Virus record (IMG/VR): IMGVR_UViG_3300043539_001043
Location: 1-54,276 of that record
From: a virus
Length of the DNA stretch: 54,276 bases
Strand: one strand, 5' to 3'
In this document: piece after piece, positions 27,189 to 49,209 of the stretch
How positions within the stretch are numbered: the stretch's first letter is position 1
How the letters are laid out: every line of letters begins with the position of its first letter
Program-made: the position numbers and the translations under genes
Notes under the pieces: generated by a model
What the model saw: only the letters and a program-made list of their open reading frames with translations
Told to the model about the DNA's origin: nothing
Database searches by the model: none

Positions 27189-27199
27189 AATATTTATAA
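27189..27199 (+). promoter_or_regulatory. Late-promoter-like motif AATATTTATAA
   Basis: Followed by TTAAAATAAAA and located 44 nt before the ATG of the first tail-collar-like gene, in the 70-nt gap after the 475-aa gene. The leader is longer than for other copies. Confidence 0.5.
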
Positions 27200-27243: not shown

Positions 27244-29436
27244 ATGTCATATATTATAAAAAGTACAAGTCCATTCGTTTCAATCAAATTAACTGAAATA
27301 GGGAGAACACAACTAGCATTAGGTAAACTTAATTTTTCTTATTGGGCTATAGGTGATTCAGAAATAAATTACGCTAGAGAAGCCATAGTTGATGCTAACC
27401 CAACAAATGTAACGTTATCAGCAACTAGTGTTATTTTTAGACCATTTGATAAACAACCTAATTTGAAATCGTTTGTTCTACCTTCAACCACAACAGACCC
27501 TTTACAAGTTGTTGATAGTTCAATAATTAGTGTTGTTAGGTCAGTTGTTAATAACCAAGCAGATACAAAAGGTTTCTTTGATTACACTGGAGGTACTTTT
27601 AACACCAAAACTGGTTCGACATATGTTAAATATACTTCATATAATTCACCTACCGCAGTTGGTAGTTCTATATTTAGTGGAACAACTAAATTATTTATCA
27701 ACACAACTGGAATAACTACTGGTGATTATGTTTTGATTAAATATAGTTCATATAAAGCATCTTTATCTGGTGGTACGTTAACAGCAAATAGTAACGACAA
27801 ACCATTACAAAACTTATGGTACAAGATTCAAAGTATGTCCGCTTCATCAACTGGATATTATGTTGATTTAGATAGAAAATTACCAAACTTTAATTTAAGT
27901 AACTTTAGTGGTTATTCACAAGTTTTTGTTTATGGTGGCGGTGAAGTTAACAACACATTTGGTGCTGATTCACAAACAGCATATTGGGATTCAAATACAT
28001 TATCATTTGATTCTTTATGTCCAATTAATTGTGAAGAAGTTCCAGTTTGGAATATGAACAATGTATGGTGTGAAACGTTAGCTGGTGTTACTGGTTTAAC
28101 AACAACTAAATTATATGAAGATTATACTAAATATGGTTCTTATCCATACTTAGGTAGTAAATATCCTTATTTTGGTTTGGCTTGTGTTTCTAACGCTTCA
28201 GCATCACAATTAACAACTCAAGCATGTGATACCCCAGGTTTAAGTTCAGTTGACGATGTAGTTAAATCTATATCAATACTTCATTATACAAACAACATGG
28301 TATCTAGTATTTATGGTGAATTCTTCTATACTGATACAGCAAACAACAAATACCTTTATATAGATTTACCAGATTTAATGTATCATAGAAGAGATTTTGC
28401 TTCTGGTTTTGGAACTGAAATGGGTATGAGATTTATTGCTAGCGGTTCAACAAAAGTAATGGATACTGATTTACAATATATTGATTTAATTGAAGACCCG
28501 ACAAGAATCCCTTCAGCTGAAACACCTTTGGTTGTTGGTAAGATTTTCCCACAACTTAAAACAGTTGTAATCCATGACGATGAAATAGTTGCTGCTATGT
28601 CTTATAAATCAAACAGAAACTGGACATTACCAGAATTAAAAGCAACATTATCAGCACCATCTGGTGGTACATCTACTGGTGTGTTAGGTGTTAATGAAAC
28701 AATGTATTTAACTTATACGTTAGATAATCTAGGTGTAACATCTGGTTTCACTTCAGCGTTACCATGTCAAAAATACATTAAAATAACAAATACGACATCA
28801 GCAGCAAAAGATATTCAATTTATCATCAACAATACAGATTTTTTACCTTACATGAGAAAAATTGAAAGTGTTGGTTATGATGGTTATGGTTTCTACGCAT
28901 ATAATTTTAAATTATTATATCAAAAAGTAACAAACATCACAGATAGACCAGACCCAGCATTATGGAAACAATTAGATTACACATCAACAGCAATTACTGG
29001 TGTTTCTGGACAAACAATTAGCCCAACTTTATTAGAAACTCAAACTCCATTAACAAATGGGTTTGTATTAGACTTAATTAAAGACGCATCATCAACTACA
29101 TTTGTATTGGATAATTTAATTAGTTATGTTCCAAACATAACACCAAATAATTTACAATTTGGTGATGAAAGATTTTTCTACGGTAATTTGAACACACATA
29201 TTGGTGCTACTATATTTAAAACTATTTTTGACATAAGAGTTAATTCTAGCCAATTTAATTCAACAACAAATATAACAAGAAGTAGTGATGTAACTACAAA
29301 CCCATCAAATATTAAAGTAAGTGAAGTGGGTATTTATGATTCAGATAAGAATCTAGTTTGTATTGGTAAATTAAGCACACCAGTTGCTTTAGCCAATAAC
29401 AATACAATAACATTAGAATTATCAATTGACTTCTAA
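27244..29436 (+). CDS. Tail-collar-fibre-like protein A, 730 aa
   Basis: The N-terminus has 'VSIKLTEIGRTQLALG' followed by a W-A-I-G-D-S-E-I-N-Y segment, and the C-terminus has V-S-E-V-G-I-Y-D-S-D-K-N-L-V-C-I-G-K. Both halves of this pattern (LTxxGxxxLA near the start and EVGLYDxxGNLxA) are familiar from the N-terminal attachment domain of phage tail-collar fibre proteins. The next gene carries the same two ends, so they are paralogues. Here a large central region, about 600 residues of beta-rich sequence, separates the two motifs. The protein probably mediates fibre attachment on the baseplate. Confidence 0.7.
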   Translation: MSYIIKSTSPFVSIKLTEIGRTQLALGKLNFSYWAIGDSEINYAREAIVDANPTNVTLSATSVIFRPFDKQPNLKSFVLPSTTTDPLQVVDSSIISVVRSVVNNQADTKGFFDYTGGTFNTKTGSTYVKYTSYNSPTAVGSSIFSGTTKLFINTTGITTGDYVLIKYSSYKASLSGGTLTANSNDKPLQNLWYKIQSMSASSTGYYVDLDRKLPNFNLSNFSGYSQVFVYGGGEVNNTFGADSQTAYWDSNTLSFDSLCPINCEEVPVWNMNNVWCETLAGVTGLTTTKLYEDYTKYGSYPYLGSKYPYFGLACVSNASASQLTTQACDTPGLSSVDDVVKSISILHYTNNMVSSIYGEFFYTDTANNKYLYIDLPDLMYHRRDFASGFGTEMGMRFIASGSTKVMDTDLQYIDLIEDPTRIPSAETPLVVGKIFPQLKTVVIHDDEIVAAMSYKSNRNWTLPELKATLSAPSGGTSTGVLGVNETMYLTYTLDNLGVTSGFTSALPCQKYIKITNTTSAAKDIQFIINNTDFLPYMRKIESVGYDGYGFYAYNFKLLYQKVTNITDRPDPALWKQLDYTSTAITGVSGQTISPTLLETQTPLTNGFVLDLIKDASSTTFVLDNLISYVPNITPNNLQFGDERFFYGNLNTHIGATIFKTIFDIRVNSSQFNSTTNITRSSDVTTNPSNIKVSEVGIYDSDKNLVCIGKLSTPVALANNNTITLELSIDF

Positions 29437-29438
29437 AA

Positions 29439-30656
29439 ATGGGATTTAACAGTTCAGCAACATCGGTAACATTAACAGCTAAGTTAACGCCAATAGGTAG
29501 ACAAAAATTAGTGTCTACTAACAATAATTTAATTAAGTTTTTCAGTTTAGGTGACTCTGACGCTAATTACTATAGTAGTTTAACTTTATCATCTGGTCAA
29601 GTACCTTCAATAAACGGTGAGATAGGTTTTGCGAATACAATTAGCAACAGTACCCCTCAATTTGTAGGGATAAAAAGCTTTTTAGTTGTAAATCAAAATG
29701 GTGATTTAACTAAACCAGTTTCACCAGAATCTATAAATATTTTAACTGAAACAGCAAATAACGGTTCAGTTACAATAAGTGGTAATAACTTAACATATAA
29801 CTTAGTAAATAGAAATAATGTTAATTCAGACCCATTAGTTAATTTATTTGGTTCTTTTAATTTACCATTAGACTCAACATCGGATATTAATTATACTGGT
29901 GTTACAGCAGCAAATGGTGGTTATTCAGACACTTGTTTTAGTGGTTTTGCTACTAACAAAGTGTTATTCATCGGAATCAACAATGCATCATATGGTGAAG
30001 TAATTGACGGTAAAACAGTTAAATTAGTATTACCTACTAGTGCTGGAACATATACTTTATATAGTACTTTACAATCTGGTAATGGTACTGTAAATGAATT
30101 AGATGCTAGTTATAGAGATATCGCAAATAATGTTGTTTTATTTGGTTTAAATGTTGCTCCATTATTTAGTGACACGATTAAAAAACCTAATAGTGATGCA
30201 TCATTAAGTTGGGCTACTGGTTACGGTTTAGATAAACCATTTAGTAATAATGGTAAGAGAGCATATAGTTTACAAACAAATAGTAACATAGCGTTGACAG
30301 CAGATACTGCTGTTGGTATGGCTTATTTAGATAAAGGGTTTATTGCAATTACTAACCCAGTTATTATTGATGCTATCACTTCAACTGGAACTACATTATT
30401 TTCTGGAATAACAGCTACTACTTTAACATTTGATAGTATATCAACAAATGTAAGTCAAATAATCACATGTATAGCTGAAAGAGGTGAATTTGGTGCGTCA
30501 ACTAGCATTTATTTTGCTGATGATGACATTGCAAAAGTAACTGAAGTTGGATTATATGATGATTTTGGAAATTTGATTGCTTATGGTAAAACAGATAGAC
30601 AAATCACTAAAAATGTTAATCAATTTTTAGCTTTATCAATAAAAATTACCATATAA
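29439..30656 (+). CDS. Tail-collar-fibre-like protein B, 405 aa
   Basis: Paralogue of the preceding gene, 2 nt downstream. N-terminal 'LTAKLTPIGRQKLVS' plus F-F-S-L-G-D-S-D-A-N-Y-Y, and C-terminal V-T-E-V-G-L-Y-D-D-F-G-N-L-I-A-Y-G-K match the ends of protein A, but the middle is about half as long. This indicates duplication followed by exchange or loss of central domains. It closes the structural operon; no clear terminator follows before the resolvase gene. Confidence 0.7.
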   Translation: MGFNSSATSVTLTAKLTPIGRQKLVSTNNNLIKFFSLGDSDANYYSSLTLSSGQVPSINGEIGFANTISNSTPQFVGIKSFLVVNQNGDLTKPVSPESINILTETANNGSVTISGNNLTYNLVNRNNVNSDPLVNLFGSFNLPLDSTSDINYTGVTAANGGYSDTCFSGFATNKVLFIGINNASYGEVIDGKTVKLVLPTSAGTYTLYSTLQSGNGTVNELDASYRDIANNVVLFGLNVAPLFSDTIKKPNSDASLSWATGYGLDKPFSNNGKRAYSLQTNSNIALTADTAVGMAYLDKGFIAITNPVIIDAITSTGTTLFSGITATTLTFDSISTNVSQIITCIAERGEFGASTSIYFADDDIAKVTEVGLYDDFGNLIAYGKTDRQITKNVNQFLALSIKITI

Positions 30657-31404: not shown

Positions 31405-32343
31405 GTGAATGAATATTTAGTATATATTTTAGAAAGTTTTTTAGGTCCTCATAGAAAATATAATGAGGAAACGGGGCAAATTGCCTTTGATTGTCCAGCA
31501 TGCGGTGAAGACAAGGACATGCCAGAGGGTGATGGTAAAGGTAACTTAGAAGTTAACTACGAAGAATCAGTTTATAAATGTTGGGCTTGTAAAGAAAAAA
31601 ACAACATGTATGGTTCTGTTTTTAAATTACTTAAACGATACGGTACACCTAAAAACTTACGAGATTACGTATTAATCAAACCAGACATAAACATATCCGA
31701 AAAAGAAAAAAAGAACATTGTTCTTACATTACCAGAAAGTTATAAAGAATTGTCTAAATGCAAAGGCGATGAATATCGTTATAAGCAAGCCATTAATTAT
31801 TTACGTGAAAGAGGTATTACAGATGAAATAATCAAAGATTATAAAATAGGTTTTACAACTACTGGTAAATTTTTTAATAGGGTAATTATACCATCATATA
31901 ATTCAGATGGTGATTTAAATTATTTTATTGCTAGATGGTTCCCAAAAGATTTTACAAAACTAAAATATCTAAATCCAGATGTTGAAAAACAAGAAATAGT
32001 CTTCAATGAAGGTAAAATAAATTGGGATTCAACAATCTATCTGGTTGAAGGTGCGACAGACCATATTGTTACACCTAATTCAATTCCGTTATTAGGTAAA
32101 TTCTTACCAGAACAATTGTTGGACTTGCTGCAAGAAAAAGCAAAAGCTTATGTTGTTATTGTTATGGATGATGATGCGTATGATGACACTGTTAGATTAT
32201 ACCATGAAATAAACTTTGGTGAGTTAAGAGGTAAAGTAAAAGTGGTCAAATGTCCAGAAGGTTATGACCCATCTAAAGTATTTGAAAAATGGGGGTATAA
32301 AGGCGTGATACAGTTATTACAAAGTTCTTATAAATTAACCTAA
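31405..32343 (+). CDS. DnaG-type DNA primase
   Basis: A 312-aa primase that lays down RNA primers at the fork. N-terminal zinc ribbon: C30-P-A-C33 and C59-W-A-C62. The central/C-terminal TOPRIM domain shows Y-L-V-E-G-A-T-D (catalytic Glu, about 219) and V-I-V-M-D-D-D-A-Y-D-D (metal-binding Asp, about 260). It lacks the helicase-binding extension of bacterial DnaG and is close in size to T4 gp61. The start is GTG at 31405: an in-frame TGA at 31399 excludes earlier starts and the next Met lies inside the zinc ribbon. Its end overlaps the end of the convergent minus-strand gene by 9 nt. Confidence 0.9.
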   Translation: MNEYLVYILESFLGPHRKYNEETGQIAFDCPACGEDKDMPEGDGKGNLEVNYEESVYKCWACKEKNNMYGSVFKLLKRYGTPKNLRDYVLIKPDINISEKEKKNIVLTLPESYKELSKCKGDEYRYKQAINYLRERGITDEIIKDYKIGFTTTGKFFNRVIIPSYNSDGDLNYFIARWFPKDFTKLKYLNPDVEKQEIVFNEGKINWDSTIYLVEGATDHIVTPNSIPLLGKFLPEQLLDLLQEKAKAYVVIVMDDDAYDDTVRLYHEINFGELRGKVKVVKCPEGYDPSKVFEKWGYKGVIQLLQSSYKLT

Positions 32344-32921: not shown

Positions 32922-33704
32922 ATGAGTAAAGCAAAATTATGGGAAGGTCCAGTATTTCTAGAACCTATTGAACATAAATATCATCATAGAGTAACTGGTA
33001 AAACTTATAAATCGGTTACAACTACATTATCGTCTATTGAACCTCACTTTGATTCTGAAGCGGTTTCTATGGCTATTGTTAACCAAGCTGATAATGTTAA
33101 ACAAGAACGTTATATTGGGATGAATCAGCTGCAAATTTTAGAATATTGGCAGATGTTAAATGATGAAGCTAACGTATATGGTTCTAAAGTCCATGATATT
33201 GTTGAAAGATATCTATTGGCTAATAAATGGTATTTTCCAGATGACACAGAAGAAGGTCAGTTTGAACAAAGAGTTATTGAAGGATTTACAGCGTTGAATA
33301 TTGATGAAGGTGTTGCAATGTGGCCAGAAAGAATTCTATTTGCTGAGCAATATGAGTTGGCTGGTATGTCCGACCTTATTATTGACATTGATGATGTATA
33401 TTTTGATGTTTGGGACTGGAAGACAAACCGTGAGTTTAATTTCTTTGACCCATTTGGTTATAAGACGCTTTTTAAGCCATTCGACCACATGCAGTCATGC
33501 CAATGGTCAGTTTATACATTACAGTTGTCTGTGTACGCTTATATGTACGAATTAGAGTTTCCTAAAAGAAAGTGCAGACAAATTAGAATTGGATATTGGG
33601 ACAAAGAAAAAATGTCATTTGAAAAAATACAAATAATGTATATGAAAAACGAAGCTAAGAAGCTAGTTGAGATGCATTATTATAACTTAATGAAAAACGC
33701 ATAA
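32922..33704 (+). CDS. PD-(D/E)XK superfamily nuclease (Cas4/AddB-like)
   Basis: A 260-aa nuclease. Motifs in order: G-S-K-V-H91-D (the conserved His of the RecB/Cas4 type), L-A-G-M-S-D-L-I (Asp near 151), F-D-V-W-D-W-K-T (D-x-K core near 165) and a Q-W-S-V-Y-T-L-Q-L-S-V-Y-A-Y motif (about 192-206). No Cys cluster of an iron-sulfur type is seen. The gene leads the recombination set with Mre11-like gp47 (1 nt later) and Rad50-like gp46, so it likely processes DNA ends in recombination-dependent replication or degrades host DNA. Confidence 0.82.
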   Translation: MSKAKLWEGPVFLEPIEHKYHHRVTGKTYKSVTTTLSSIEPHFDSEAVSMAIVNQADNVKQERYIGMNQLQILEYWQMLNDEANVYGSKVHDIVERYLLANKWYFPDDTEEGQFEQRVIEGFTALNIDEGVAMWPERILFAEQYELAGMSDLIIDIDDVYFDVWDWKTNREFNFFDPFGYKTLFKPFDHMQSCQWSVYTLQLSVYAYMYELEFPKRKCRQIRIGYWDKEKMSFEKIQIMYMKNEAKKLVEMHYYNLMKNA

Positions 33705-33705
33705 T

Positions 33706-34518
33706 ATGATAAAAAAAGTAGTACACTTAGCTGATATACATATCAGAACTCTTAGAATGCATGATGAATATAAAGATGTATTCAAAACGCTGTTGAAAGA
33801 TTTAAGAGAACTGTTAGTTGATTACAGCAGAGAAGAAATTAGAATAGTTATAGCTGGTGATTTAGTTCACCAAAAAATTGTTATCTCAAATGAGATGTTA
33901 ATTTTAGGTACATGGTTGCTAAGAAAACTAGAAGAAATAGCACCAGTTATTCTTATAGCTGGAAACCATGACTTGTTAGAAAACAATGCTAACAGAATGG
34001 ACAGTATAACACCAATGGTACAATTTTTGGGTGACAAAGATATAAACTATTTTAAAGAATCTAAATGTTATTTGGATGACAATATTGTTTGGTGTGCCTA
34101 TTCAATCTTTGAAGAAAATGCAAGACCAGATATTGAAGGTGCTAGGATTGAGTTTGGTGATGATAAAACTTACATTGGGTTATTTCATGCACCAATAATG
34201 AACGCTAAGACTGACATCGGTTATTCAATTGACCATGGTGCTGAATTAGATATATTTGAAGGTTGTGATATTGCAATGTTAGGTGACATACATAAACGTC
34301 AGATATTTAACCATAAAGATATTATGATAGCCTATCCATCATCGCTTATACAACAAAACTTTGGTGAGAATATTACTAAACATGGATTTTTATTATGGGA
34401 TGTTGAAACTAAAACATATACAGAACATGATGTAGATAACAAATATTCGTTTTATCAATTTAAAATCACTTCATTAGAAGATATTGAGAACGGAGAAGAA
34501 AAACTTACTAACTTATGA
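33706..34518 (+). CDS. Recombination exonuclease subunit, Mre11/SbcD/gp47-like
   Basis: A 270-aa calcineurin-type phosphoesterase. Metal-binding motifs appear in order: H-L-A-D10-I-H12, A-G-D52-L-V-H, G-N87-H88-D89, L-F-H-A-P (about 165) and G-D-I-H-K (about 198). With the Rad50-like partner encoded downstream it forms the T4 gp46/47-type complex that resects DNA ends for recombination-dependent replication. Length is shorter than T4 gp47. Its TGA overlaps the next ATG (ATGA), and two small genes separate it from the gp46-like gene. Confidence 0.9.
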   Translation: MIKKVVHLADIHIRTLRMHDEYKDVFKTLLKDLRELLVDYSREEIRIVIAGDLVHQKIVISNEMLILGTWLLRKLEEIAPVILIAGNHDLLENNANRMDSITPMVQFLGDKDINYFKESKCYLDDNIVWCAYSIFEENARPDIEGARIEFGDDKTYIGLFHAPIMNAKTDIGYSIDHGAELDIFEGCDIAMLGDIHKRQIFNHKDIMIAYPSSLIQQNFGENITKHGFLLWDVETKTYTEHDVDNKYSFYQFKITSLEDIENGEEKLTNL

Positions 34519-34745: not shown

Positions 34746-35112
34746 ACAATTAAAAGATGAAATTTGGGATTATTGCAGAGCCAATAATATTACGAATATT
34801 GATGACTTTATGACTAAAGTTCTTAAACAAGGTTTCACTATTGAAAAGTACGGTTCAACGCCAGTACCAACTGTCAAAGAAAAGATTGTCGAAGTAGAAA
34901 AAATTGTTGAAGTAGAAAAGGTTGTCGAAGTAATCAAAGAAGTACCTATCAATATGGTTGATATGGAAATGGATGAAAAGATAAAAAACTACATTAAACT
35001 GGCTGAACTTGGCGAGAAAAAACTACGTGAATGTAGTGATTTAAGTGATGTTCTTAGAAAACAATTAGAAATAGAAAAAAACAAAAATAAAACAGATTTA
35101 TATGGAGAATAG
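34726..35112 (+). CDS. Small helical protein with KIVEVE repeat, TTG start
   Basis: A 128-aa protein. No ATG is available: an in-frame stop lies just upstream and the first candidate codons are TTG at 34726 and 34732, both inside the end of the previous gene. The N-terminal part (about 5-40) is helical, with Y-C-R-A-N-N-I-T-N-I-D-D-F, like a short ribbon-helix or wHTH-type segment. Residues about 50-75 form an imperfect I-V-E-V-E-K repeat, a spacer often seen in phage proteins, followed by a helical tail. It overlaps the gp46-like gene by 11 nt. Function unknown. Confidence 0.6.
   Translation: MTLEISKQLKDEIWDYCRANNITNIDDFMTKVLKQGFTIEKYGSTPVPTVKEKIVEVEKIVEVEKVVEVIKEVPINMVDMEMDEKIKNYIKLAELGEKKLRECSDLSDVLRKQLEIEKNKNKTDLYGE
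34884..34937 (+). repeat. Imperfect 18-nt coding repeat (IVEVEK)
   Basis: Three imperfect copies of a unit of the type GATTGTCGAAGTAGAAAA encode consecutive I-V-E-V-E-K / V-V-E-V-I-K blocks in the 128-aa protein. Confidence 0.8.
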
Positions 35113-37471
35113 TGTAGAAGTATTAGATATCAAATCGATATCACCTTATGCTAAAATTAAAATTTATTGGGACGACAAACCACACAATTATAGTAGAGAA
35201 GCTAAGAATAAAATTAGAAATTACTTTGCTAACAAATATGGTGTGAATAAAAATAACATTAATGTTGTCTATCGACCAGTTAAAAGAACAGCAAACGGTG
35301 ACCTAATTGAAATTACTGGTGCTGGTATTGAGAATATCATGGACGTAAACTATCAAAGAGCTCTTATGAAGGAGTTAATTGAAAGAGACGATAAGAAGGT
35401 TGACTTTAACAGAATCCTTGCGTTAGACGACAAAGTTAACGGTGAACTAAATGTTGATGTTAATGAAGTGCAGCACAGAACTTGGAGTGTTAAATGGTTA
35501 ATGATAAATAACCTATTATCATTTGGTGAGGATAATTACATTCCTTTCTCAAAATTAAGAGGATTAAACATCGTTAATTCAATCCCATCAAATCAAGGTG
35601 GTAAAACTACTATGACTATTGATGCGATGAAATTCTTATTACATGGTAATACAACAAAAACAGATACTAACGAGCAAATTTTCAACCAATATAGTGATAA
35701 AAACGATTTAACTGTTCGTGGTATGATTGATATTGAAGGTGAAGAAATAATAATTGAACGTAAGATGAAAAGAACTGCCAAAAAAGGTGGTGGTTGGACT
35801 ATTGTTAATAGAGTTAATTATTATGAATTACTACCAGATGGTGAAGAAAAAGCGTTAAACGAAGAAGATGCCATTAGAACAACTAAAAAGATTAAAGAAA
35901 CTATTGGCAGCGAAAAAGACTTTGAGATGCTTGTATTGGCTACTGAGAAGAATTTAGATGATTTAATTGGGTTAACAACAAGTGAATCTGGAAAAGTATT
36001 GACTAGACTTATTGGTTTAGAGATTTTAGAACTAAAAGAAAAAGCTGTTAGGGAAATGTATAATGAATTCGCTAGAAAGAAAAAATCTAACGAATACGAT
36101 GTTATTACTTTGACAGATGAAATCGAAGACCATAAAGAAAAAGGACAAGAATGTGCTGACCTTGAAAATACTTTGAATGAAAGGTTAACTAAAGCAAAAA
36201 ATGATATAAAAACATTAACAAATGAGAAAGAGTCTTCAATCAATAGCAAAGAAAAAATTGACGTAACAATATCTGAGTTAAACCCAGAATCATTAGAATC
36301 TGAAATTGAAAAAATAACTGAAAAAGGTACTGGTTTAGCTAAAGAAGTAAAAGAACATCAAACAAAGATTGATGAAATTGGTGTTGTTGTGTTTGATGAG
36401 GATATGCATTTTGATTGGACCAAACAATTAAATCAATTAAATACTGATATAGCATTAAAAGAAGCTGATGCTGAAAGAATCACTAAACAAGTTGAAGATT
36501 TAATTGCTGGTGGTATTTGTCAATCATGTAATAGAAAATTAGATGATGTTGACAATACAGAACACATAGCAGCACACAATAAACAACTGTCAGAAATTAA
36601 TGACAAACTTAATGAATTGTGCAACACTAGAGAAATGTTAACTGAAGAATTAACAAGGTTAAATGAAATCAAAAAATCGGTTGATGACAAGAATAAATTA
36701 GAGTTAGCAAAAGACAGATTAGAAGTTGAAATTGGTTCTCTTAGAAATAAAATTGTTGAAAAGAAAAATGAGTTAAAAAAATATAAACTTAATTTGGATG
36801 CAATTGAATTAAACAAAAGGATTGATATTGAAATTACAAATATTAAGACTAAAATAGCTGTATGTGAACATACTAAAGATGATACGATTACTAAAATAGA
36901 AAGGGTTCAAACAGAGATTACAAACCATAAATCTGGTATTGAAATTAAAACCAAATTAATTGAAACCATCAAGAAAGAAGAAGATATAGATAAAATCTTT
37001 AAAATCTATATTGAATTGGTTGGCAAGAAAGGTATTAGTAAATTAGTGCTGCGTTCCGTGTTACCAATTATAAATTCTGAAATACAAAGATTGTTAGATG
37101 ATGTTGTAGATTTCGATGTCGAGATATTTATTAATGACAAGAATGACGTTCAGTTTTTATTGGTTAAAGATGGTGTGTCAAAACTATTAAAATCTGGGTC
37201 TGGTTTAGAGAAAACAGCAGCAAGTTTAGCACTTAGAGCTGTGTTAGGAAAACTATCTACTTTACCAATGCCTAATTTTATAACTTTTGATGAAGTCTTA
37301 GGTAAAGTTGCTCAAGACAACATTGAGAAACTAAAAACGTTATTTGATAAAATAAAAGAAATGTACGAAATAGTGTTTTTTATAACACATAATGACATTG
37401 TTAAAGATTGGGGAGATAATGTTATCACAGTAATCAAAACTGATAACGTATCTAAAATAACAATTAAATAA
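35102..37471 (+). CDS. Recombination ATPase, Rad50/SbcC/gp46-like
   Basis: A 789-aa SMC-like ATPase, partner of the Mre11-like nuclease. The ATPase head begins only near residue 128, after an N-terminal extension of about 125 residues not typical of T4 gp46. The P-loop P-S-N-Q-G-G-K168-T-T departs from the usual G-x-N-G-x-G-K-(S/T). Long coiled coils flank a zinc hook C473-Q-S-C476. The signature region reads S-G-S-G-L-E-K-T-A-A-S-L-A-L-R, and Walker B is F-I-T-F-D-E-V-L-G (about 735). The first codons overlap the upstream gene. It probably drives DNA-end processing in recombination-dependent replication. Confidence 0.9.
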   Translation: MENSVEVLDIKSISPYAKIKIYWDDKPHNYSREAKNKIRNYFANKYGVNKNNINVVYRPVKRTANGDLIEITGAGIENIMDVNYQRALMKELIERDDKKVDFNRILALDDKVNGELNVDVNEVQHRTWSVKWLMINNLLSFGEDNYIPFSKLRGLNIVNSIPSNQGGKTTMTIDAMKFLLHGNTTKTDTNEQIFNQYSDKNDLTVRGMIDIEGEEIIIERKMKRTAKKGGGWTIVNRVNYYELLPDGEEKALNEEDAIRTTKKIKETIGSEKDFEMLVLATEKNLDDLIGLTTSESGKVLTRLIGLEILELKEKAVREMYNEFARKKKSNEYDVITLTDEIEDHKEKGQECADLENTLNERLTKAKNDIKTLTNEKESSINSKEKIDVTISELNPESLESEIEKITEKGTGLAKEVKEHQTKIDEIGVVVFDEDMHFDWTKQLNQLNTDIALKEADAERITKQVEDLIAGGICQSCNRKLDDVDNTEHIAAHNKQLSEINDKLNELCNTREMLTEELTRLNEIKKSVDDKNKLELAKDRLEVEIGSLRNKIVEKKNELKKYKLNLDAIELNKRIDIEITNIKTKIAVCEHTKDDTITKIERVQTEITNHKSGIEIKTKLIETIKKEEDIDKIFKIYIELVGKKGISKLVLRSVLPIINSEIQRLLDDVVDFDVEIFINDKNDVQFLLVKDGVSKLLKSGSGLEKTAASLALRAVLGKLSTLPMPNFITFDEVLGKVAQDNIEKLKTLFDKIKEMYEIVFFITHNDIVKDWGDNVITVIKTDNVSKITIK

Positions 37472-37517: not shown

Positions 37518-38054
37518 ATGGAGATTAAAAATTATTGCGTAATAATTATGGGCGACACTAAAAACGTTATCGATGAGATTGAAAAAATTAGTGATAACAA
37601 GCCTAATATATTAGATGCTAAAGGTATTATAATTGCCACATTATCATCAGCACTTACAGTTGGTGAAATTAACGAATGGTTTAAATTACAAAATAGAAGT
37701 TTTTTTGTTTTTGATTTAAACCCTAAGTATTCTGGTTATAACATAACAAAAGAAGAAATTCACGAAGGTTTATTTGGTTTTATAAAGGAATCAGATTCTC
37801 TTTTAAGTAAAAGAATGAATGATTTACTAGACGCTATAGAAGATGCTAAAATTATCAAAGAAAATAGCAAAAAGATAAAGACTACTAAACCAATAGATGT
37901 TAAAACAGTTATAAGACCTAGAAGGATAACTGAAGAACAAATAGAAAACATGACTCTTGCTGAAAAGCAAGAAGCAATGAATAAAATCATAGATTCTGGA
38001 GTTGAAAACTTTACAGATTATGATAAGAAAATGTTAAGCCTTTTGGCTAAATAA
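37518..38054 (+). CDS. Unknown protein between gp46-like and sigma factor
   Basis: A 178-aa protein I do not recognise. The N-terminal half looks like an alpha/beta fold: strand 'NYCVIIMGD', a helix, then 'GIIIATLSS', a helix, then 'RSFFVFDLNP'. The C-terminal half is helical, Lys-rich and ends T-D-Y-D-K-K-M-L-S-L-L-A-K. No catalytic motif can be named. Its own host-type promoter and position directly before the sigma-factor gene suggest an early or middle gene, possibly linked to transcription or replication control; this is only context. Confidence 0.65.
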   Translation: MEIKNYCVIIMGDTKNVIDEIEKISDNKPNILDAKGIIIATLSSALTVGEINEWFKLQNRSFFVFDLNPKYSGYNITKEEIHEGLFGFIKESDSLLSKRMNDLLDAIEDAKIIKENSKKIKTTKPIDVKTVIRPRRITEEQIENMTLAEKQEAMNKIIDSGVENFTDYDKKMLSLLAK

Positions 38055-38061
38055 AAGGACG

Positions 38062-38098
38062 TAAAGTATTGACTTTTACGAATTTATCCTTATATTTA
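38062..38098 (+). promoter_or_regulatory. Host-type promoter with dyad before the sigma gene
   Basis: TTG (38069-38071), a 19-nt spacer and TATATTTA (38091-38098) fit the Bacteroidota promoter. A CGTAAA...TTTACG inverted repeat with a 9-nt gap spans the -33 box and could be an operator or a weak hairpin. The leader to the ATG at 38132 is about 33 nt. Confidence 0.55.
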
Positions 38099-38131: not shown

Positions 38132-38953
38132 ATGAACAAAAAATTTGTAAATTTTGAAAACAACGATAGTATATCAAAGTATTTTAAAGAAGTAAGAAAA
38201 TCAGTAATTTTAACTAAAACCGAAGAAATAAGTTTAGCTAAAAGAATTAAAAAAGGTGATACCAAAGCAATTGAAACTTTGGTTAAAGCAAATTTAAAAT
38301 TTGTGGTTTCTGTAGCTAAAGAATATCAAGGACAAGGAATGTTATTACAAGACTTGATAAATGAAGGTAATTACGGTTTAGTTAAAGCTGCAACAAGATT
38401 TGATTACAAAAAAGGTTTCAGATTCATCTCTTACGCTGTATGGTGGATTAGACAATCTATTATTCAAAGTTTAAATGATAACGCTAGAATGGTTAGATTA
38501 CCATCTAATGTTATTAATAAGATTTCTAAATTAAATAAAGAAATTTCAAAAGTTGAATTATTAGATGATGCTGATTTTACAGTTAATGATATTGAAAATT
38601 TTGATTTAAGATTGATTAATTATCCAAAGTGTGTTTCGCTTAATGAACACATAAACGAAGAAGGTGATGAGTTGATTGAACTAATACCTTTTGATAATAG
38701 TGATGAAGATAAATTAATTATAGACGAAAGAATTAAAAAACAAATTGATTTAACATTGTCCGTTTTAAGTGAAAGAGAAATTGAAATAATAAAATGTTAT
38801 TTTGGTATTGACACCAAATGTGAAGCTATGACACTAGAAGCAATAGGTGATAGATATGGTTTGACAAAAGAAAGAATTAGACAAATAAAAGAAAAAGCAA
38901 TTAGAAAATTAAGACATAATGCTCATGATTTATTTGATTTGATAAATGGATAA
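38132..38953 (+). CDS. RpoD-like (primary-type) sigma factor
   Basis: A 273-aa sigma-70 protein with the compact layout of Bacteroidota RpoD: region 1.2 (about 12-45), region 2 (about 46-115) with the A-N-L-K-F-V-V-S-V-A-K core-binding segment, L-I-N-E-G-N-Y-G-L and F-I-S-Y-A-V-W-W-I-R-Q-S-I, region 3 opening with R-M-V-R-L-P, and region 4 with L-S-E-R-E-I-E-I-I and the HTH T-L-E-A-I-G-D-R-Y-G-L-T-K-E-R-I-R-Q-I (about 234-252). No region 1.1. It is thus a full host-type sigma, not a short gp55-like late factor. A host-type promoter precedes it and a strong terminator follows. It may redirect host RNA polymerase to phage promoters. Confidence 0.93.
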   Translation: MNKKFVNFENNDSISKYFKEVRKSVILTKTEEISLAKRIKKGDTKAIETLVKANLKFVVSVAKEYQGQGMLLQDLINEGNYGLVKAATRFDYKKGFRFISYAVWWIRQSIIQSLNDNARMVRLPSNVINKISKLNKEISKVELLDDADFTVNDIENFDLRLINYPKCVSLNEHINEEGDELIELIPFDNSDEDKLIIDERIKKQIDLTLSVLSEREIEIIKCYFGIDTKCEAMTLEAIGDRYGLTKERIRQIKEKAIRKLRHNAHDLFDLING

Positions 38954-38956
38954 ACT

Positions 38957-38978
38957 AAGGGTCTATGACCCTTTTTTT
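38957..38978 (+). terminator. Strong intrinsic terminator after the sigma gene
   Basis: AAGGGTC-TAT-GACCCTT is a perfect 7-bp stem with a 3-nt loop, continuing into a T run. It lies 3 nt after the stop and just before a late-promoter-like motif. Confidence 0.88.
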
Positions 38979-38986
38979 AGTTTTAA

Positions 38987-38996
38987 ATATTTATAA
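38987..38996 (+). promoter_or_regulatory. Late-promoter-like motif ATATTTATAA
   Basis: Located 8 nt after the T run of the sigma terminator and 11 nt before the ATG of the 441-aa membrane protein, followed by AATAAAA. The terminator/motif pairing supports a promoter role. Confidence 0.6.
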
Positions 38997-39007
38997 AATA
39001 AAAGTAT

Positions 39008-40333
39008 ATGAAAGTAAAATTTAGTTACATAATGTTAATTTTAGCACTAGCCGTTGCTGGTTGTGCTGCATATTTCTCAGTATGGGGTTTAAGTCAGTTA
39101 TTTGCTGGTGCAAGTACTGCTGTTATTATAATGGCATCTGTATTGGAAATTGGTAAAGTAGTTACAACTACTGCTTTACACACATATTGGCATAAATTAG
39201 CCAGAGGTTTAAAAATTTATTTAACTATAAGTGTTGGTGTGCTTATGTTAATTACATCTGCTGGTATTTATGGTTTTTTATCTAACGCTTACCAATCAAC
39301 AGCAAACAAATTAGAGTTGCACGAAGGTGAGTTAAGTGTGTTAGAAGCCAAGAAACAAGTATTTGAAAAAACAATAGCTGACAATACAAAGATTATTGAA
39401 ACTAAAACTAAACGTGCTGAACAATTGAATAACCTAAGAGGTAATCAAGAATCACGTTTGGATAATTCAACCAACAACAGAAACCAAAGAAACGCTAGAC
39501 GTGACATTGAAAGTTCAGATAAACAAATTCAACTATTAAATACTGAAATAGACTTACTTAACTCTAAAAATATTGTGTTGTCTGATTCAGTAAATGTTTA
39601 TAACGTAAAAGCTATTGAATTAAAAGCTGGAAGTGAAGTATCTGGTGAAGTTGGCCCACTTAAATATGTTTCTGAATTAACTGGAACACCAATGGCGAAT
39701 GTAGTTAATTATATGATTCTACTTCTTATATTTGTGTTTGACCCATTGGCAATAGCATTAATATTGGCAACCAACAGAGTGTTTGAATTGGAAAGTAAAC
39801 AAACTCCACTAGAACCTAAAGTTAACTTTGTCCCATCTGCCGAAACTCCAACAACTATTGTAGAAGTAATTAAATCAAATAATGAGGGAGTAAATGAGGG
39901 AGTAAATGAGGGAGTAAATGAGGGAGTAAACTTTGATGAAGACCATGCATTGAGTGAAGTTATGAATCAAATGGTTAAAGATTTGGAAACAGAAGATATC
40001 ATAATACCAATTGAAGAAGAACTTGATGACACTGTAAATGACACTGTAAATGACACTGTAAATGATATAGAACCATGGGATATCAGACCTATGCCAGAGG
40101 AAGAACCATCAACAACTGTTAGTGAAAAAAATGTTGAAGTTCCAGTATACAAAAAAGAACCAGTAATCCCAACTGGAAAAGTTAATTTAGAAGACATAAG
40201 AGAAATTAAAGAAGGTAGAGGATTTTCAGTTGAAGTACCAAAACCTAAAACTAGTAACACAATAGAAAGAATCGGCTCAAATAAAATAATTAAAAACGGT
40301 GATGATAATAAGATTTTTTATAAACGTGGTTAA
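39008..40333 (+). CDS. Multi-span membrane protein with coiled coil and repeat-rich tail
   Basis: A 441-aa membrane protein. Hydrophobic spans at about 7-32, 38-60 and 71-96 are followed by a coiled coil (about 97-215), another span at about 230-258, and an acidic Pro/Glu-rich tail. The tail holds two 12-nt tandem repeats giving N-E-G-V x4 and D-T-V-N x3. V-A-G-C at residues 16-19 looks like a lipobox, but the hydrophobic sequence continues past it, so a true lipoprotein is doubtful. It follows a terminator and a late motif and shares one base with the next gene (TAATG). Possible roles are inner-membrane remodelling or superinfection control; neither is shown. Confidence 0.75.
   Translation: MKVKFSYIMLILALAVAGCAAYFSVWGLSQLFAGASTAVIIMASVLEIGKVVTTTALHTYWHKLARGLKIYLTISVGVLMLITSAGIYGFLSNAYQSTANKLELHEGELSVLEAKKQVFEKTIADNTKIIETKTKRAEQLNNLRGNQESRLDNSTNNRNQRNARRDIESSDKQIQLLNTEIDLLNSKNIVLSDSVNVYNVKAIELKAGSEVSGEVGPLKYVSELTGTPMANVVNYMILLLIFVFDPLAIALILATNRVFELESKQTPLEPKVNFVPSAETPTTIVEVIKSNNEGVNEGVNEGVNEGVNFDEDHALSEVMNQMVKDLETEDIIIPIEEELDDTVNDTVNDTVNDIEPWDIRPMPEEEPSTTVSEKNVEVPVYKKEPVIPTGKVNLEDIREIKEGRGFSVEVPKPKTSNTIERIGSNKIIKNGDDNKIFYKRG
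39881..39928 (+). repeat. 12-nt tandem repeat, 4 perfect copies
   Basis: The unit AATGAGGGAGTA is repeated four times without change inside the membrane-protein gene and encodes N-E-G-V repeats. Perfect identity implies recent expansion; length changes keep the frame. Confidence 0.95.
40028..40063 (+). repeat. 12-nt tandem repeat, 3 perfect copies
   Basis: The unit GACACTGTAAAT is repeated three times, encoding D-T-V-N repeats, 99 nt after the first repeat block in the same gene. Confidence 0.95.
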
Positions 40334-40941
40334 TGATAATAGAAGACAAAAAATACAGTTTAGACGAAAAAAATTATGTACCTATTGAATGTATTAAAAA
40401 ACAAATAGTTATTGGTAATACTAATAGCAAAGACATGACACATGTTATAGGTTGGAAAACTAGATTAAACGGAAACAATAAAAAAACGGCAGCATTCACA
40501 ATAGATAAAGATGGTGTTATTCATAAACATTTTGAACCAACATTTCAATCTAAATACTTTTCTAAATTAGAACAAAACACTAAATCCATTATTATTTTAC
40601 TAGAAAATGAAGGGTATTTAACTAGAAAATCACCAGATAAGAATTTTTATAACTGGAAAGGTGATATTTATAATGGAATAGTGGTTGGCAGAATGTGGAA
40701 AGGAATCAACAAATGGGCTACTTACACACAAGAACAATTAGATTCATGTGTTGAATTATGTGATTATTTATGTGATGAATTTTTCATACCTAAAACCGCT
40801 ATAGGACACAATACAAAAATTGAGGATACGAGTAGTTATAATGGTGTGTTATATAAAAGTAACATATCCAAACACTATTTTGATGTATCACCAGCATGGG
40901 ATTGTGAACAATTTAAAAATAAACTAGAAAGTAAAAATTAA
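40333..40941 (+). CDS. Amidase_2-like protein lacking a zinc-ligand His
   Basis: A 202-aa protein whose course matches N-acetylmuramoyl-L-alanine amidases: K-K-Q-I-V-I-G-N-T at 22-30 where active enzymes read I-V-L-H-H-T, then A-A-F-T-I-D-K-D-G-V-I-H (53-64), T-Q-E-Q-L in a helix, I-G-H159-N near the usual second His ligand, and F-D184-V-S-P in place of the D-P-G-P region. The first His ligand is replaced by G-N. The protein may be a catalytically inactive peptidoglycan-binding derivative or use another ligand. No signal peptide. It starts on the stop of the membrane-protein gene. The separate GH24 enzyme is the more likely endolysin. Confidence 0.5.
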   Translation: MIIEDKKYSLDEKNYVPIECIKKQIVIGNTNSKDMTHVIGWKTRLNGNNKKTAAFTIDKDGVIHKHFEPTFQSKYFSKLEQNTKSIIILLENEGYLTRKSPDKNFYNWKGDIYNGIVVGRMWKGINKWATYTQEQLDSCVELCDYLCDEFFIPKTAIGHNTKIEDTSSYNGVLYKSNISKHYFDVSPAWDCEQFKNKLESKN

Positions 40942-42051: not shown

Positions 42052-42753
42052 ATGGAAGAACCAAAACCAATACAAGAAGGAACAACAAAAAGTAATAAAA
42101 AGAATTATAAACCAAGAACAAGGAGAAAAGCAGCTGCACCAAATCCTATAATGTCTAAACCACTACCTAAAGAGTATGTAGAACAAAGGAAAAATGAGAT
42201 ACCAATGTATGACCCATTCACTGGTGAAGCCAATCCTTATTATGAAGAATTAACTGGTAAAAAGAATCCGTTGTTGGCAAAAGAAGATGATGCAATAACT
42301 AGAACAAAAAATGGAAACAATCATAGATTTGGTAAAGATATTAAAATACCAGAATTTGGTAGAAAGAATAGATTTTTAGTTATATTAGATAAAGAATTAG
42401 GTATTGAACCTTTTTTCATTTCATCAATAAATGGCCCAAAAGTAAATTTTGAAAACGTAATGGTTTTAGGTATTAAGACGCTTATTAAAAAATATAAAAT
42501 AGAAGACATAGTTTTAAAATTCAAATCCCCACTACAAAACCAAATCAACAAGAAATTAATGGATATGGGTATCAACCATAAAAGATTTGGAATGAAAGTT
42601 GAAATACTAGAACCAACTGGTGTTGTTTATGAAAGTTGGGTAATGACTGGTTGTTTATTAAAATCGGTTAACTTTGGTCCATTAGACTACACTGATAATT
42701 CATTTTCAGAATGTGAACTTGTAATATCACCTAGTGATTACATGATTAAATAA
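42052..42753 (+). CDS. Tail-tube-fold protein (gp19/gp54-like)
   Basis: A 233-aa protein. After a basic, Pro-rich N-terminal extension (about 1-95, with R-T-R-R-K), residues about 104-233 resemble the T4 gp19 tube fold: N-R-F-L-V-I-L then G-I-E-P-F-F-I-S-S-I-N-G-P, a helix, K-V-E-I-L-E-P-T-G-V-V-Y-E-S-W, and the final G-P-L-D-Y-T-D-N-S-F...I-S-P-S-D-Y strand pair. Possible roles are a tube, tube-cap or baseplate-hub ring protein, or a chaperone with this fold. The terminator directly after it ends this transcription unit. Confidence 0.55.
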   Translation: MEEPKPIQEGTTKSNKKNYKPRTRRKAAAPNPIMSKPLPKEYVEQRKNEIPMYDPFTGEANPYYEELTGKKNPLLAKEDDAITRTKNGNNHRFGKDIKIPEFGRKNRFLVILDKELGIEPFFISSINGPKVNFENVMVLGIKTLIKKYKIEDIVLKFKSPLQNQINKKLMDMGINHKRFGMKVEILEPTGVVYESWVMTGCLLKSVNFGPLDYTDNSFSECELVISPSDYMIK

Positions 42754-42773
42754 TAATATTATAATAATTAAAT

Positions 42774-42799
42774 AAAGCCCTAATCTTAGGGCTTTTTTT
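42774..42799 (+). terminator. Strong intrinsic terminator
   Basis: AAAGCCCTAA-TC-TTAGGGCTTT is a palindrome with a T run, folding as a stem of 8-10 bp. It ends the 39008-42753 unit and is followed by a late-promoter-like motif. Confidence 0.88.
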
Positions 42800-42810
42800 G
42801 TTTATTAACC

Positions 42811-42820
42811 ATATTTATAA
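42811..42820 (+). promoter_or_regulatory. Late-promoter-like motif ATATTTATAA
   Basis: It lies 11 nt after the terminator T run and 12 nt before the ATG of the 80-aa gene, followed by TAAAAA. Confidence 0.6.
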
Positions 42821-42832
42821 TAAAAAGTCTAA

Positions 42833-43075
42833 ATGAGAAATATAATTAAAGAAGAGCTATCAAAAACAGATGTCAATAAACAAATTAAAGGTTATATTGA
42901 TAGTGCAGATTTTAAAAATAAAATCGAAAAGATAGTTAAAGAAAAACTTAAAAACGAAAAGGAATTAGAAAATAAAATTGTTGAAATAACTAAAAACGTT
43001 TTGACGCAGCTTTATAAAACTCTTTGGCTAAAAAGAAATACATGGATAGATAACCTTTCAAATAAAAATAATTAA
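42833..43075 (+). CDS. Small helical late protein, 80 aa
   Basis: A Lys/Glu-rich helical protein beginning M-R-N-I-I-K-E-E-L and ending with an aromatic stretch 'LYKTLWLKRNTWID'. Small proteins of this form occur in marine T4-like phages next to virion genes, but no function is known to me. It is first in a late unit, 2 nt before the 504-aa gene. Confidence 0.65.
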   Translation: MRNIIKEELSKTDVNKQIKGYIDSADFKNKIEKIVKEKLKNEKELENKIVEITKNVLTQLYKTLWLKRNTWIDNLSNKNN

Positions 43076-44613: not shown

Positions 44614-44623
44614 ATATTTATAA
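44614..44623 (+). promoter_or_regulatory. Late-promoter-like motif ATATTTATAA
   Basis: Followed by TAAAATCAATT; ends 15 nt before the ATG of the 725-aa gene in a 46-nt gap without a terminator. Confidence 0.55.
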
Positions 44624-46895: not shown

Positions 46896-47357
46896 ATGGA
46901 AAAGATTACAAAAACTGGTACAAAAGGTATCGAACTAATTAAAAAATTTGAAGGGTTTATGTCTAAACCTTATAAGTGTCCAGCTGGGATTCCTACAATA
47001 GCATATGGAGCAACGTTTTACCCTAATGGTAAAAAAGTAACAATGTCTGACAAAGCTGTAACTGAAGCTGAAGGTGTTGAATTGTTGAAATCTATGTTAT
47101 CAAAATTTGAACAATATGTAGATTCATATTGTATTGATACTATCACACAAAACCAATTTGATGCATTAGTTTCTTTTTGTTACAATTTAGGACCAGCTAA
47201 CTTAAAATCTTCAACATTATTAAAAAAAGTTAATGCTAACCCTAACGATGAAACAATCAGAGCTGAATTTATGAAATGGACAAAAGCTGGCGGCAGAACG
47301 TTAAAAGGTTTAGTTACTAGAAGAACAGCTGAAGCTGATTTATATTTTACTAAATAA
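46896..47357 (+). CDS. GH24 (T4-lysozyme-type) endolysin
   Basis: A 153-aa muramidase that cleaves the glycan strand of peptidoglycan at lysis. The catalytic Glu19 is in K-K-F-E-G-F, followed by C28-P-A-G-I-P-T34-I-A-Y-G. In T4 lysozyme the position of Cys28 is Asp20; C-P-A-G variants are a natural subgroup of the family, so activity is expected. The fold continues with N-Q-F-D-A-L-V-S-F-C-Y-N-L-G and ends with the R-R-T-A-E helix. No signal peptide or SAR anchor is seen, so it needs a holin, not identified here. It is a single-gene unit with its own late motif and terminator. Confidence 0.92.
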   Translation: MEKITKTGTKGIELIKKFEGFMSKPYKCPAGIPTIAYGATFYPNGKKVTMSDKAVTEAEGVELLKSMLSKFEQYVDSYCIDTITQNQFDALVSFCYNLGPANLKSSTLLKKVNANPNDETIRAEFMKWTKAGGRTLKGLVTRRTAEADLYFTK

Positions 47358-47375
47358 ATACAAGAAGAAATTATT

Positions 47376-47414
47376 CAAAAACCCTGGCCACGGCTGGGGT
47401 TTTTGGTTTTTTTT
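47376..47414 (+). terminator. Very strong intrinsic terminator after the endolysin
   Basis: CAAAAACCCTGGC / GGCTGGGGTTTTTG form a stem of about 13 pairs (with G-U pairs) around a CACG loop, followed by a long T run. It isolates the endolysin gene from the two-component operon. Confidence 0.88.
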
Positions 47415-47416
47415 GA

Positions 47417-47426
47417 ATATTTATAA
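47417..47426 (+). promoter_or_regulatory. Late-promoter-like motif before the two-component operon
   Basis: ATATTTATAA right after the terminator T run and 13 nt before the ATG of the histidine kinase, followed by TTAAAG. Confidence 0.6.
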
Positions 47427-47439
47427 TTAAAGTTACAAC

Positions 47440-49209
47440 ATGGATAAACTTAACAAAATTTATATTGGAATTGGTACTGCAATAATGGTCTTTTATATTT
47501 TAATGCATACTTTCATTATGCTAGATTTTATACCGTTATGCAAAGAAATTGCAATTTTCAATTACGTATCAATAATTCTATTTAGCATACCAGCTTTTCT
47601 ATTCGTAAGAGGGTTTATCAGAAAAGGTAAAGAATCCACAAAGTTAAATTATTATGCTAAAAAATTGAATGAAACATTAATTCATCAATCACACAATCAA
47701 TTATTTTATGATGGTAACATTATTGATGGTTCTAAACATTTAACAAAAGAAGTTACATTATCAACTGATACTGACAGATGTTCAATATGGTTATATAACG
47801 AAGATAAATCAGCTATTACGTGTAAACAATTATATGTAAAGCATGAAGACAAATGGTATAACAATATTACGTTATATAAGACGGATTACGAGCCTTATTT
47901 CAACGCCCTTATAGTTGACCCAATAATTGTAGCTAATGATGCTAGAACGCATCAATCAACAAGATGTTTTACGGAATCATATTTAATTCCTTTAGGTATA
48001 AATTCTATGTTAGACGTTCCAATATTTTATAAAGGTAAAGTTATTGGTGTTATCTGTATTGAAGCGTTTAAACCTAGAGAATGGCATAAGGTTGAAGTTA
48101 ATTTTGCTGAGATGTTATCATCTTTGTTTTCGTTTATGTATTCCGTTAAAGAAAACAAAATTGTTGAACAAAATATGATTGATTTTGAGGAATTTATTAA
48201 CGAAACCGCATTGGTCTCAAAAGCGGATAAAAACGGTAAAATAACATATGTTAATAAAAAGTTTATTGAAGTTTGTGGTTACAGTAAAAGAGAACTTTTG
48301 GGTAAAGACCACAGCATAGTTAATTCTGGGGTTCAATCAAAAGAATTCTGGACTAAAATGTATAAGACTACTGTAAAGAATAAAAAGATTTGGCATGAAT
48401 TAGTGGTTAATAAAAACAAAAACGGTAAACTATATTATGTAGACACATATATTAAAGCTGACTTTAATCATGAAACTGGTGAGCTAATGGGCTTCACATC
48501 AATTAGACAAGATGTAAGCGAATTGTTTGAATCGTTAAATGAATTAAATAAAAAGAATACCTATTTAGAGCACGCTGCGAAGATTCTAAGACACGATATG
48601 CATTCTGGTATAAATACATATATCCCTAGGGGTATTAGTTCGTTAGAACGAAGATTATCACCAGAAATTATAGAAGAAACTAAATTAGAAGCACCTTTAA
48701 GAATGTTGAAAGAAGGTTTAAAACATACACAAAAAGTTTACAAAGGGGTTTATGAATTTACAAACCTAGTTAAACAAGACGCAGTTTTATCAAAAGATTA
48801 TCATAACATTAAAGAAATATTGGTTAATTTCTTAAAATCAACAGCATATTTTAGTCAAATTAAAATTGATGATTTACCTAATCACGAGGTGAACGAATCT
48901 TTATTTTGTACAGCAATTGATAATTTGATTAGAAACGGTTTAAAATACAATGATTCAAACAATAAAGTAATCCACATTTATATGGAAGATGAAGAAACAT
49001 TGGTTGTACAAGATAATGGTAGAGGATTAACACAAGAAGAATTTGAAGAATATTCAAAACCGTATACTAGAAACAAAAATCAAAAAGAGCCAGGTACTGG
49101 TTTAGGTTTAAATATTTGTATTGCAATATTAAAAGAGCATGGTTTCAAAATTAATTGTGAAAAAAATGAAATAGGAACTAAAATGAAAATAAAGTTAAAT
49201 AAAAATTAA
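47440..49209 (+). CDS. Membrane-bound hybrid-free sensor histidine kinase (GAF-PAS-HisKA-HATPase)
   Basis: A 589-aa complete kinase. Two membrane spans (about 7-28 and 34-60) are joined by a loop of only a few residues, so there is no periplasmic sensor. A GAF domain (about 85-235), a PAS domain (about 248-345, with K-I-T-Y-V-N-K-K-F and G-Y-S-K-R-E-L-L-G), and a dimerisation helix with phospho-acceptor His385 in L-R-H-D-M-H follow. The ATPase has an N box (D-N-L-I-R-N-G-L-K-Y), G1 (Q-D-N-G-R-G-L) and G2 (G-T-G-L-G-L). All catalytic elements are intact. It heads a late operon, with the receiver gene 6 nt downstream. A full sensor kinase in a phage is rare; its signal is unknown but should be cytoplasmic. 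Confidence 0.93.
   Translation: MDKLNKIYIGIGTAIMVFYILMHTFIMLDFIPLCKEIAIFNYVSIILFSIPAFLFVRGFIRKGKESTKLNYYAKKLNETLIHQSHNQLFYDGNIIDGSKHLTKEVTLSTDTDRCSIWLYNEDKSAITCKQLYVKHEDKWYNNITLYKTDYEPYFNALIVDPIIVANDARTHQSTRCFTESYLIPLGINSMLDVPIFYKGKVIGVICIEAFKPREWHKVEVNFAEMLSSLFSFMYSVKENKIVEQNMIDFEEFINETALVSKADKNGKITYVNKKFIEVCGYSKRELLGKDHSIVNSGVQSKEFWTKMYKTTVKNKKIWHELVVNKNKNGKLYYVDTYIKADFNHETGELMGFTSIRQDVSELFESLNELNKKNTYLEHAAKILRHDMHSGINTYIPRGISSLERRLSPEIIEETKLEAPLRMLKEGLKHTQKVYKGVYEFTNLVKQDAVLSKDYHNIKEILVNFLKSTAYFSQIKIDDLPNHEVNESLFCTAIDNLIRNGLKYNDSNNKVIHIYMEDEETLVVQDNGRGLTQEEFEEYSKPYTRNKNQKEPGTGLGLNICIAILKEHGFKINCEKNEIGTKMKIKLNKN

Follow-up and report, generated by a model that had tools for sequence, protein, structure and literature searches.

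A phage form of the Bacteroidota primary sigma factor and a predicted division of promoters in T4-like jumbo phages

A conserved locus with an RpoD-like sigma factor gene

The window, i.e. the whole viral record of 54,276 bases that we analysed, is a linear fragment that carries an RpoD-like sigma factor gene together with genes of the T4 type (nrdA/nrdB, gp25, gp6, primase, a RuvC-like gene, exonuclease, gp47 and gp46). The closest named relatives of its baseplate wedge protein are those of Flavobacterium phage immuto (27%) and Microcystis phage Mel-JY01 (29%). The features around the sigma gene are the following:

31405-32343, + strand: DNA primase, conserved neighbour (phrog_47, E 6.8e-34)
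32922-33704, + strand: exonuclease (phrog_298, E 4.4e-18)
33706-34518, + strand: gp47 / SbcD-like protein, conserved neighbour (phrog_100, E 5.6e-20)
35102-37471, + strand: gp46 / SbcC-like protein, conserved neighbour (phrog_77, E 8.7e-51)
37518-38054, + strand: 178-aa protein, directly 5' of the sigma gene
38069-38097, + strand: putative promoter of the sigma gene, TTGACTTTT-N13-TATATTT (TTG-N19-TATATTT), starting 63 nt 5' of the ATG
38132-38953, + strand: RpoD-like sigma factor gene, ATG start, 273 aa and stop; regions 1.2, 2.1-2.4, 3 and 4.1-4.2
40333-40941, + strand: N-acetylmuramoyl-L-alanine amidase, conserved 3' neighbour (PF01510, E 1.8e-8)

In IMG/VR, no fewer than 80 loci have a homologue of the sigma factor (44-100% identity), the longest contig among them reaching 380 kb, and the best matches in a GenBank-derived collection of phage records were only about 40% identical. 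The gene order around sigma is kept as primase, exonuclease, gp47, gp46, (178-aa protein), sigma, (membrane/coil protein) and amidase. Since gp46 is present at 77/80 loci, the amidase at 75/80 and gp47 at 73/80, the position of the sigma gene is fixed and the gene is vertically inherited. The gene thus belongs to the old core of a T4-like jumbo-phage group whose members are mostly uncultured and probably infect Bacteroidota; it is not a recent capture from a host. The 178-aa protein, which has a homologue at 55/80 viral loci, gave no Pfam match and no significant PHROG match; its N-terminus (NYC..) and C-terminal tail (about LTDYDKKILxLL) are conserved, and it is a candidate partner, anti-sigma factor or coactivator.

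The protein has the compact Bacteroidota form

The sigma protein exceeded the curated Pfam cut-offs for Sigma70_r1_2 (E 1.6e-9, 38 bits, cut-off 22), Sigma70_r2 (E 3.8e-17, 62.3 bits, cut-off 24) and Sigma70_r4 (E 6e-15, 54.9 bits, cut-off 24.1), which places it in the sigma-70 family; there was no other Sigma70_r2 match in the 54,276-base record. As region 1.1 is absent and the length is that of Bacteroidota RpoD (about 270 aa), the protein is of the compact Bacteroidota RpoD type, in agreement with the first-pass annotation, which had described a full RpoD-type sigma factor with regions 1.2 to 4.2 in this form. The nearest solved structures are primary sigma factors, with SigA (4e-52) ahead of RpoD and RpoS. 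In an HMM comparison the protein matched PHROG_351 ('RNA polymerase sigma factor') with E 1.6e-59; host RpoD also matches this family (E 2.1e-78), and therefore the family is not virus-specific. The late sigma factor family of T4 gp55, phrog_234, was not among its PHROG matches, and region 4 is present. Against the NCBIfam RpoD equivalogs (TIGR02393, NF006666) it scored 178 bits with a cut-off of 354, a cut-off that is uninformative for this phylum because the genuine RpoDs of Flavobacterium (251) and Parabacteroides (244) also fall short of it. Comparison with a 95%-identical homologue gave a dN of 0.027 and a dS of 0.63 (dN/dS about 0.04), so that the gene is functional and under strong purifying selection.

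Origin of the phage sigma factor

The nearest cellular matches are the RpoDs of Bacteroidota and their neighbours (44-49% identity). In a careful tree the viral sigma factors formed one clade (100/99) that lay outside all sampled host RpoDs (96/83), and hence outside the clade of Bacteroidota RpoDs; a quick tree with more rows likewise set them apart from the hosts. AU tests did not reject a root inside Bacteroidia (p 0.11-0.21). Viral and host sigma factors have FCB-type states in common (L/I at position 440, Q441, N455, K591 and E592), and ancient descent from a Bacteroidota-type RpoD is therefore favoured. Recent capture from a single host genus was considered and rejected, as the viral clade nests in no sampled host family, with the AU tests leaving an origin in Bacteroidia possible. 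The proposal that the gene was taken from a host is thus plausible for an old event, the nearest cellular relatives being RpoDs of this type; the suggested phylogeny gave a separate viral clade whose closest cellular matches are RpoDs.

Some contigs encode more divergent RpoD-like sigma factors beside the core one (L203, L206, L207 and L210-L214, on contigs G004, G009, G018, G038, G043, G044 and G048). Three sigma types occur on G009 and four region-2 matches on G043. Seven of these more divergent sigma factors grouped outside the core clade in the quick tree.

Promoter-reading residues are largely those of the host

We compared the residues that read the promoter in an alignment of 80 viral and 80 host sigma factors. 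Region 2.3 (FISYAVWW) was identical across all rows, as were E585, R588, Q589 and K591 of region 4.2 between the two sets. Q437 and N455 are kept in the viral proteins, and position 440 is I or L where the host has L. Among the reading positions only one, R584, has a fixed change: all viral rows have K there, and all host rows R. Judged by its reading residues in regions 2.3/2.4 and 4.2, the phage protein would have the promoter specificity of Bacteroidota RpoD, with the exceptions of R584K and I/L at 440. Such host-like residues argue against a new core specificity, and the comparison came close to the identity that the first-pass annotation had itself named as evidence against one. On the other hand, the viral proteins have fixed changes at positions 442, 444, 446, 454, 456, 458, 459 and 461, at the end of region 2.4 and in region 3.0, and the C-terminal tail of host RpoD is replaced. 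These changes leave room for altered specificity, and they may affect the reading of the extended -10 element or contacts with other factors. We also looked for covariation of sigma residues with the nn of TAnnTTTG (CA, CC or TA, depending on the phage), and no residue clearly tracked it.

Two classes of promoters

Words enriched 5' of genes fall into two groups, a host-type class (class H) and a class with the motif ATATTTATA (class L). Class H has the form TTG-N19/20-TAnnTTTG, a promoter of the Bacteroidota sigma-A type; TAnnTTTG is the sigma-A consensus in Flavobacterium (PMC9723704). The numbers of genes preceded by each class, observed with expected in brackets, were as follows for contigs of relatives:

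G002: class H 14 (1.8), class L 25 (3.2)
G004: class H 21 (3.3), class L 28 (3.0)
G009: class H 59 (10.1), class L 52 (7.7)
G024: class H 9 (1.3)
G047: class H 8 (1.4)
G048: class H 64 (9.0), class L 48 (10.4)

When TTC replaced the TTG box as a control, the class H counts fell to 0-2. The spacing of class H is sharply fixed, with the TTG box at one distance in 155 of 362 sites. In contrast, TTG occurred at no preferred distance from 194 sites of the class L 8-mer ATATTTAT, indicating that class L has no -35 box at any spacing. In the window, ATATTTAT lies 5' of 10 of the 52 genes (1.2 expected).

The two classes precede different genes. On G002, class H sites lie before primase, the exonuclease-gp47-gp46 run (the exonuclease homologue, its first gene, has a host-type promoter 5'), RNase HII, DNA ligase, RNA ligase and polyA-polymerase-like genes, and the class L ATATTTAT sites before tail sheath, tube, hub and gp25. 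The host-type promoter of this RNase HII gene, whose homologue in the window is cut by the window's end (53918-54276), reads TTG-N-TACATTTG. Another host-type promoter lies 5' of the gene for a 435-aa protein of G002 (121198-122505, locus L222) in which a PARP catalytic domain was found (PF00644, E 1e-26) and which is a possible enzyme of host takeover.

The class L form ATATTTATAA has seven sites on the + strand of the window and none on the - strand, and five of the seven are in gaps just 5' of genes:

27190-27199, + strand: ATATTTATAA late-type promoter, 5' of the gene at 27244
38987-38996, + strand: ATATTTATAA late-type promoter, between sigma and the gene at 39008, behind a terminator-like hairpin and T-run
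42811-42820, + strand: ATATTTATAA late-type promoter, 5' of the gene at 42833
44614-44623, + strand: ATATTTATAA late-type promoter, 5' of the gene at 44639
47417-47426, + strand: ATATTTATAA late-type promoter, 5' of the kinase-like gene at 47440

At 38953-39008, 42753-42833 and 47357-47440 a terminator-like hairpin with a T-run is followed at once by ATATTTATAA, so that terminator and next promoter are packed together. The gene at 47440-49209 (+ strand) encodes a GAF-PAS-HATPase protein similar to sensor histidine kinases; a homologue was seen in the flank of 8/80 loci. Two other readings of the motif were rejected. The first takes ATATTTATAA for the T4 late box TATAAATA read backwards; in its forward orientation this box showed only mild enrichment (4 vs 1.2 in the window, 5 vs 2.6 on G002), so that ATATTTATAA is used in its own orientation. 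As a translation signal ATATTTATA would fit poorly: it lies mostly 12-55 nt 5' of starts, at varied distances, and is unenriched at host loci (8 vs 7.3 genes). In the literature searched we found no promoter work on such phages.

The putative promoter of the sigma gene has boxes that are invariant or nearly so across 32 rows, with a spacer that varies. TTGACTTTT-N13-TATATTT lies 5' of sigma at 30 of the 31 closest loci (L002-L032), at L037 and in the window. This promoter thus puts the sigma gene itself in the host-type class (early or middle). TTGACTTTT-N-TATATTT recurs 5' of the gene for a gp32-type single-strand-binding protein (G002 29196-30125; L217:9196-10125), and similar promoters lie 5' of genes for proteins of about 300 aa on G004, G009 and G024. 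There are very few such promoters per genome, and on G024, G047 and G048 the sigma gene is kept with no TTGACTTTT...TATATTT promoter in front.

A gp55-like protein in the same genomes

A second protein, of about 240 aa and with a partial Sigma70_r2 match, was read out from 7 of the first 50 sigma-bearing contigs, and a profile built from it (A1) was used to search the contigs. Direct searches of the relatives with T4 gp55 gave one weak match only, so that profiles of this second sigma were needed. Nine of the contigs found through sigma measure 205 kb or more, and with A1 the gp55-like gene was found on each of them, on the opposite strand and 103-135 kb away from sigma; the end of G020 holds a truncated piece of it. 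On contigs where the gene was not seen, the sequence on that side of sigma is no longer than about 117 kb. Its lack on G002 (126 kb) and G004 (137 kb) is no evidence of absence, because these hold only about 73 kb on the relevant side. In the reverse search, starting from the gp55-like protein, both contigs of more than 200 kb carried a full RpoD-like sigma factor (39% identical) at about 100 kb. Thus, every contig of the group that is long enough for both loci encodes a gp55-like protein. Given the distance of about 100-135 kb in relatives, the gene is expected to lie outside our 54-kb window, and for this phage, of which the window is a fragment, it is predicted from the relatives.

The likeness of this protein to T4 gp55 is weak (phrog_234, E 0.005; hhalign E 0.003, probability 10%, collinear over region 2). 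The top Foldseek hits of its AlphaFold model (pLDDT 75) were sigma factors, with target TM-scores of 0.62-0.65 for sigma-2 domains and no significant E-value.

The cultured Flavobacterium phage immuto encodes a homologue of the gp55-like protein (E 7e-23), and a search of 150 kb out of its 160 kb found no RpoD-like sigma factor. In immuto 18 genes, including terminase, sheath and tube, have the class L 8-mer 5' of them (2.3 expected). The class H dyad TTG-N-TAnnTTTG was not found there; its host-type promoters are TTG-N-TATATTTAG instead, which the host factor presumably reads. Small genes of its early region (L232, L230) have a repeated promoter cassette, with no fewer than 15 near-identical TTG-N-TATATTTAGGTAT(C)AATAATTAAAA promoters. 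In T4, gp55 reads late promoters, which have no -35 element (PMC2988020). The T4 parallel, the co-occurrence of the gene with class L and the case of immuto together link class L with the gp55-like protein and not with the RpoD-like sigma factor. The contrast with T4 gp55 drawn in the first-pass annotation is correct for the gene at 38132-38953; it does not extend to the group, in which a gp55-like factor appears to be present too.

Which promoters would the phage sigma factor serve?

We propose, with a probability of about 0.6, that the phage has its own version of the Bacteroidota primary sigma factor, which serves class H, with a gp55-like factor serving class L. The sigma factor would have been acquired long ago and then inherited vertically as a core gene of the T4-like jumbo-phage group. 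Having retained the reading head of the host, it would bind the host core RNA polymerase and direct it to TTG-N19/20-TAnnTTTG promoters on the phage genome, i.e. to early to middle genes of replication, recombination, nucleotide metabolism and RNA processing. It could keep these genes on when the host sigma factor is limiting or disabled, and the late ATATTTATA promoters would be read by the separate gp55-like sigma factor, with region 2 only. We infer which sigma factor pairs with which promoters, when they act and why the phage has a copy. That the phage factor reads class H is deduced from its conserved residues and from the promoter content of the genomes; as the host sigma-A could read class H too, the phage factor may or may not be needed there. 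The most attractive reason for a phage copy would be a shortage or inactivation of the host factor during infection. Action at housekeeping-type promoters, the second of two alternatives raised by the first-pass annotation, fits these data best.

In the other alternative, the phage took sigma from a host and re-tuned it to ATATTTATAA, to serve as a late sigma factor in place of T4 gp55. Its gene does adjoin gp46/gp47, broadly the location of gp55 in T4, ATATTTATA promoters are abundant, and there are fixed viral substitutions in regions 2.4 to 3.0. However, the motif is as strong in immuto, which was found to have no such sigma factor, class L has no -35 box although region 4.2 of the protein is intact, the base-reading residues are host-like and a gp55-like gene co-occurs; re-tuning is therefore unsupported and we regard it as unlikely, and the role of gp55 is better filled by the gp55-like gene. 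Less improbable, if still doubtful, is a division in which the general host-type promoters fall to host sigma-A and a narrower set to the phage factor, e.g. the TTGACTTTT-N13-TATATTT promoters of sigma itself (autoregulation) and gp32, or a subset set by region 3.0. The strict conservation of this promoter at the closest loci, its recurrence before gp32 and in similar form on three other contigs, and the fixed R584K and region 3.0 changes would agree with such a role, whereas a handful of sites per genome are few for a whole sigma factor, and three contigs keep sigma without this promoter before it. Action mainly on the host chromosome, where the phage factor would keep chosen host genes on during infection, seems very improbable: its reading residues do match host promoters, but the phage genomes hold dozens of well-formed host-type promoters of their own, a simpler target.

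The proposal that the phage factor serves class H could be extended to a relay of three steps, which we put forward tentatively, as something that may well prove otherwise: host sigma-A would act first, at strong TTGACTTTT/TATATTT promoters (including those of sigma and gp32), the phage sigma factor would then replace the disabled host factor at TTG-N20-TAnnTTTG middle promoters, and the gp55-like protein would act at the late ATATTTATA promoters.

Comparison with known systems

Complete RpoD-like sigma factors, besides minimal ones, are already known from group 2 (T4-like) jumbo phages, the former being likely of cellular origin (Iyer et al. 2021, PMC7824862). Like those, the factor described here is a full sigma close to cellular RpoD in large phages with gp23-type genes and without an RNA polymerase of their own. 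Unlike them, its clade has no match of more than about 40% identity in the phage record collection; the fixed gp47-gp46-sigma-amidase locus, the co-occurrence of a gp55-like gene in the same genomes and the two promoter classes are new. In the literature searched, the RpoD-like sigma factors of large T4-like phages are mainly annotations without assigned promoters, and transcription in Bacteroidota phages is little studied. Two promoter classes and two sigma types that are separated by genomes give a direct prediction of which sigma factor pairs with which class.

The phage protein resembles Bacteroidota RpoD/sigma-A in its compact form, which has no region 1.1, and is identical to it in region 2.3 and in most of the reading helix of region 4.2. 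It differs in its overall identity (44-49%), its separate clade, R584K, the changed region 3.0 and the replaced C-terminal tail. T4 gp55 is likewise encoded by the phage, near genes 46 and 47 as sigma is near gp46/gp47 here; however, gp55 docks at the site of sigma domain 2 and works without a -35 element (PMC2988020), whereas the sigma factor in the window has the full set of regions. A phage with its own copy of a primary sigma factor would differ from T4, which modifies that of the host, and if the relay is true, the host primary sigma factor would be swapped for an immune phage copy, where T4 remodels it with AsiA and MotA.
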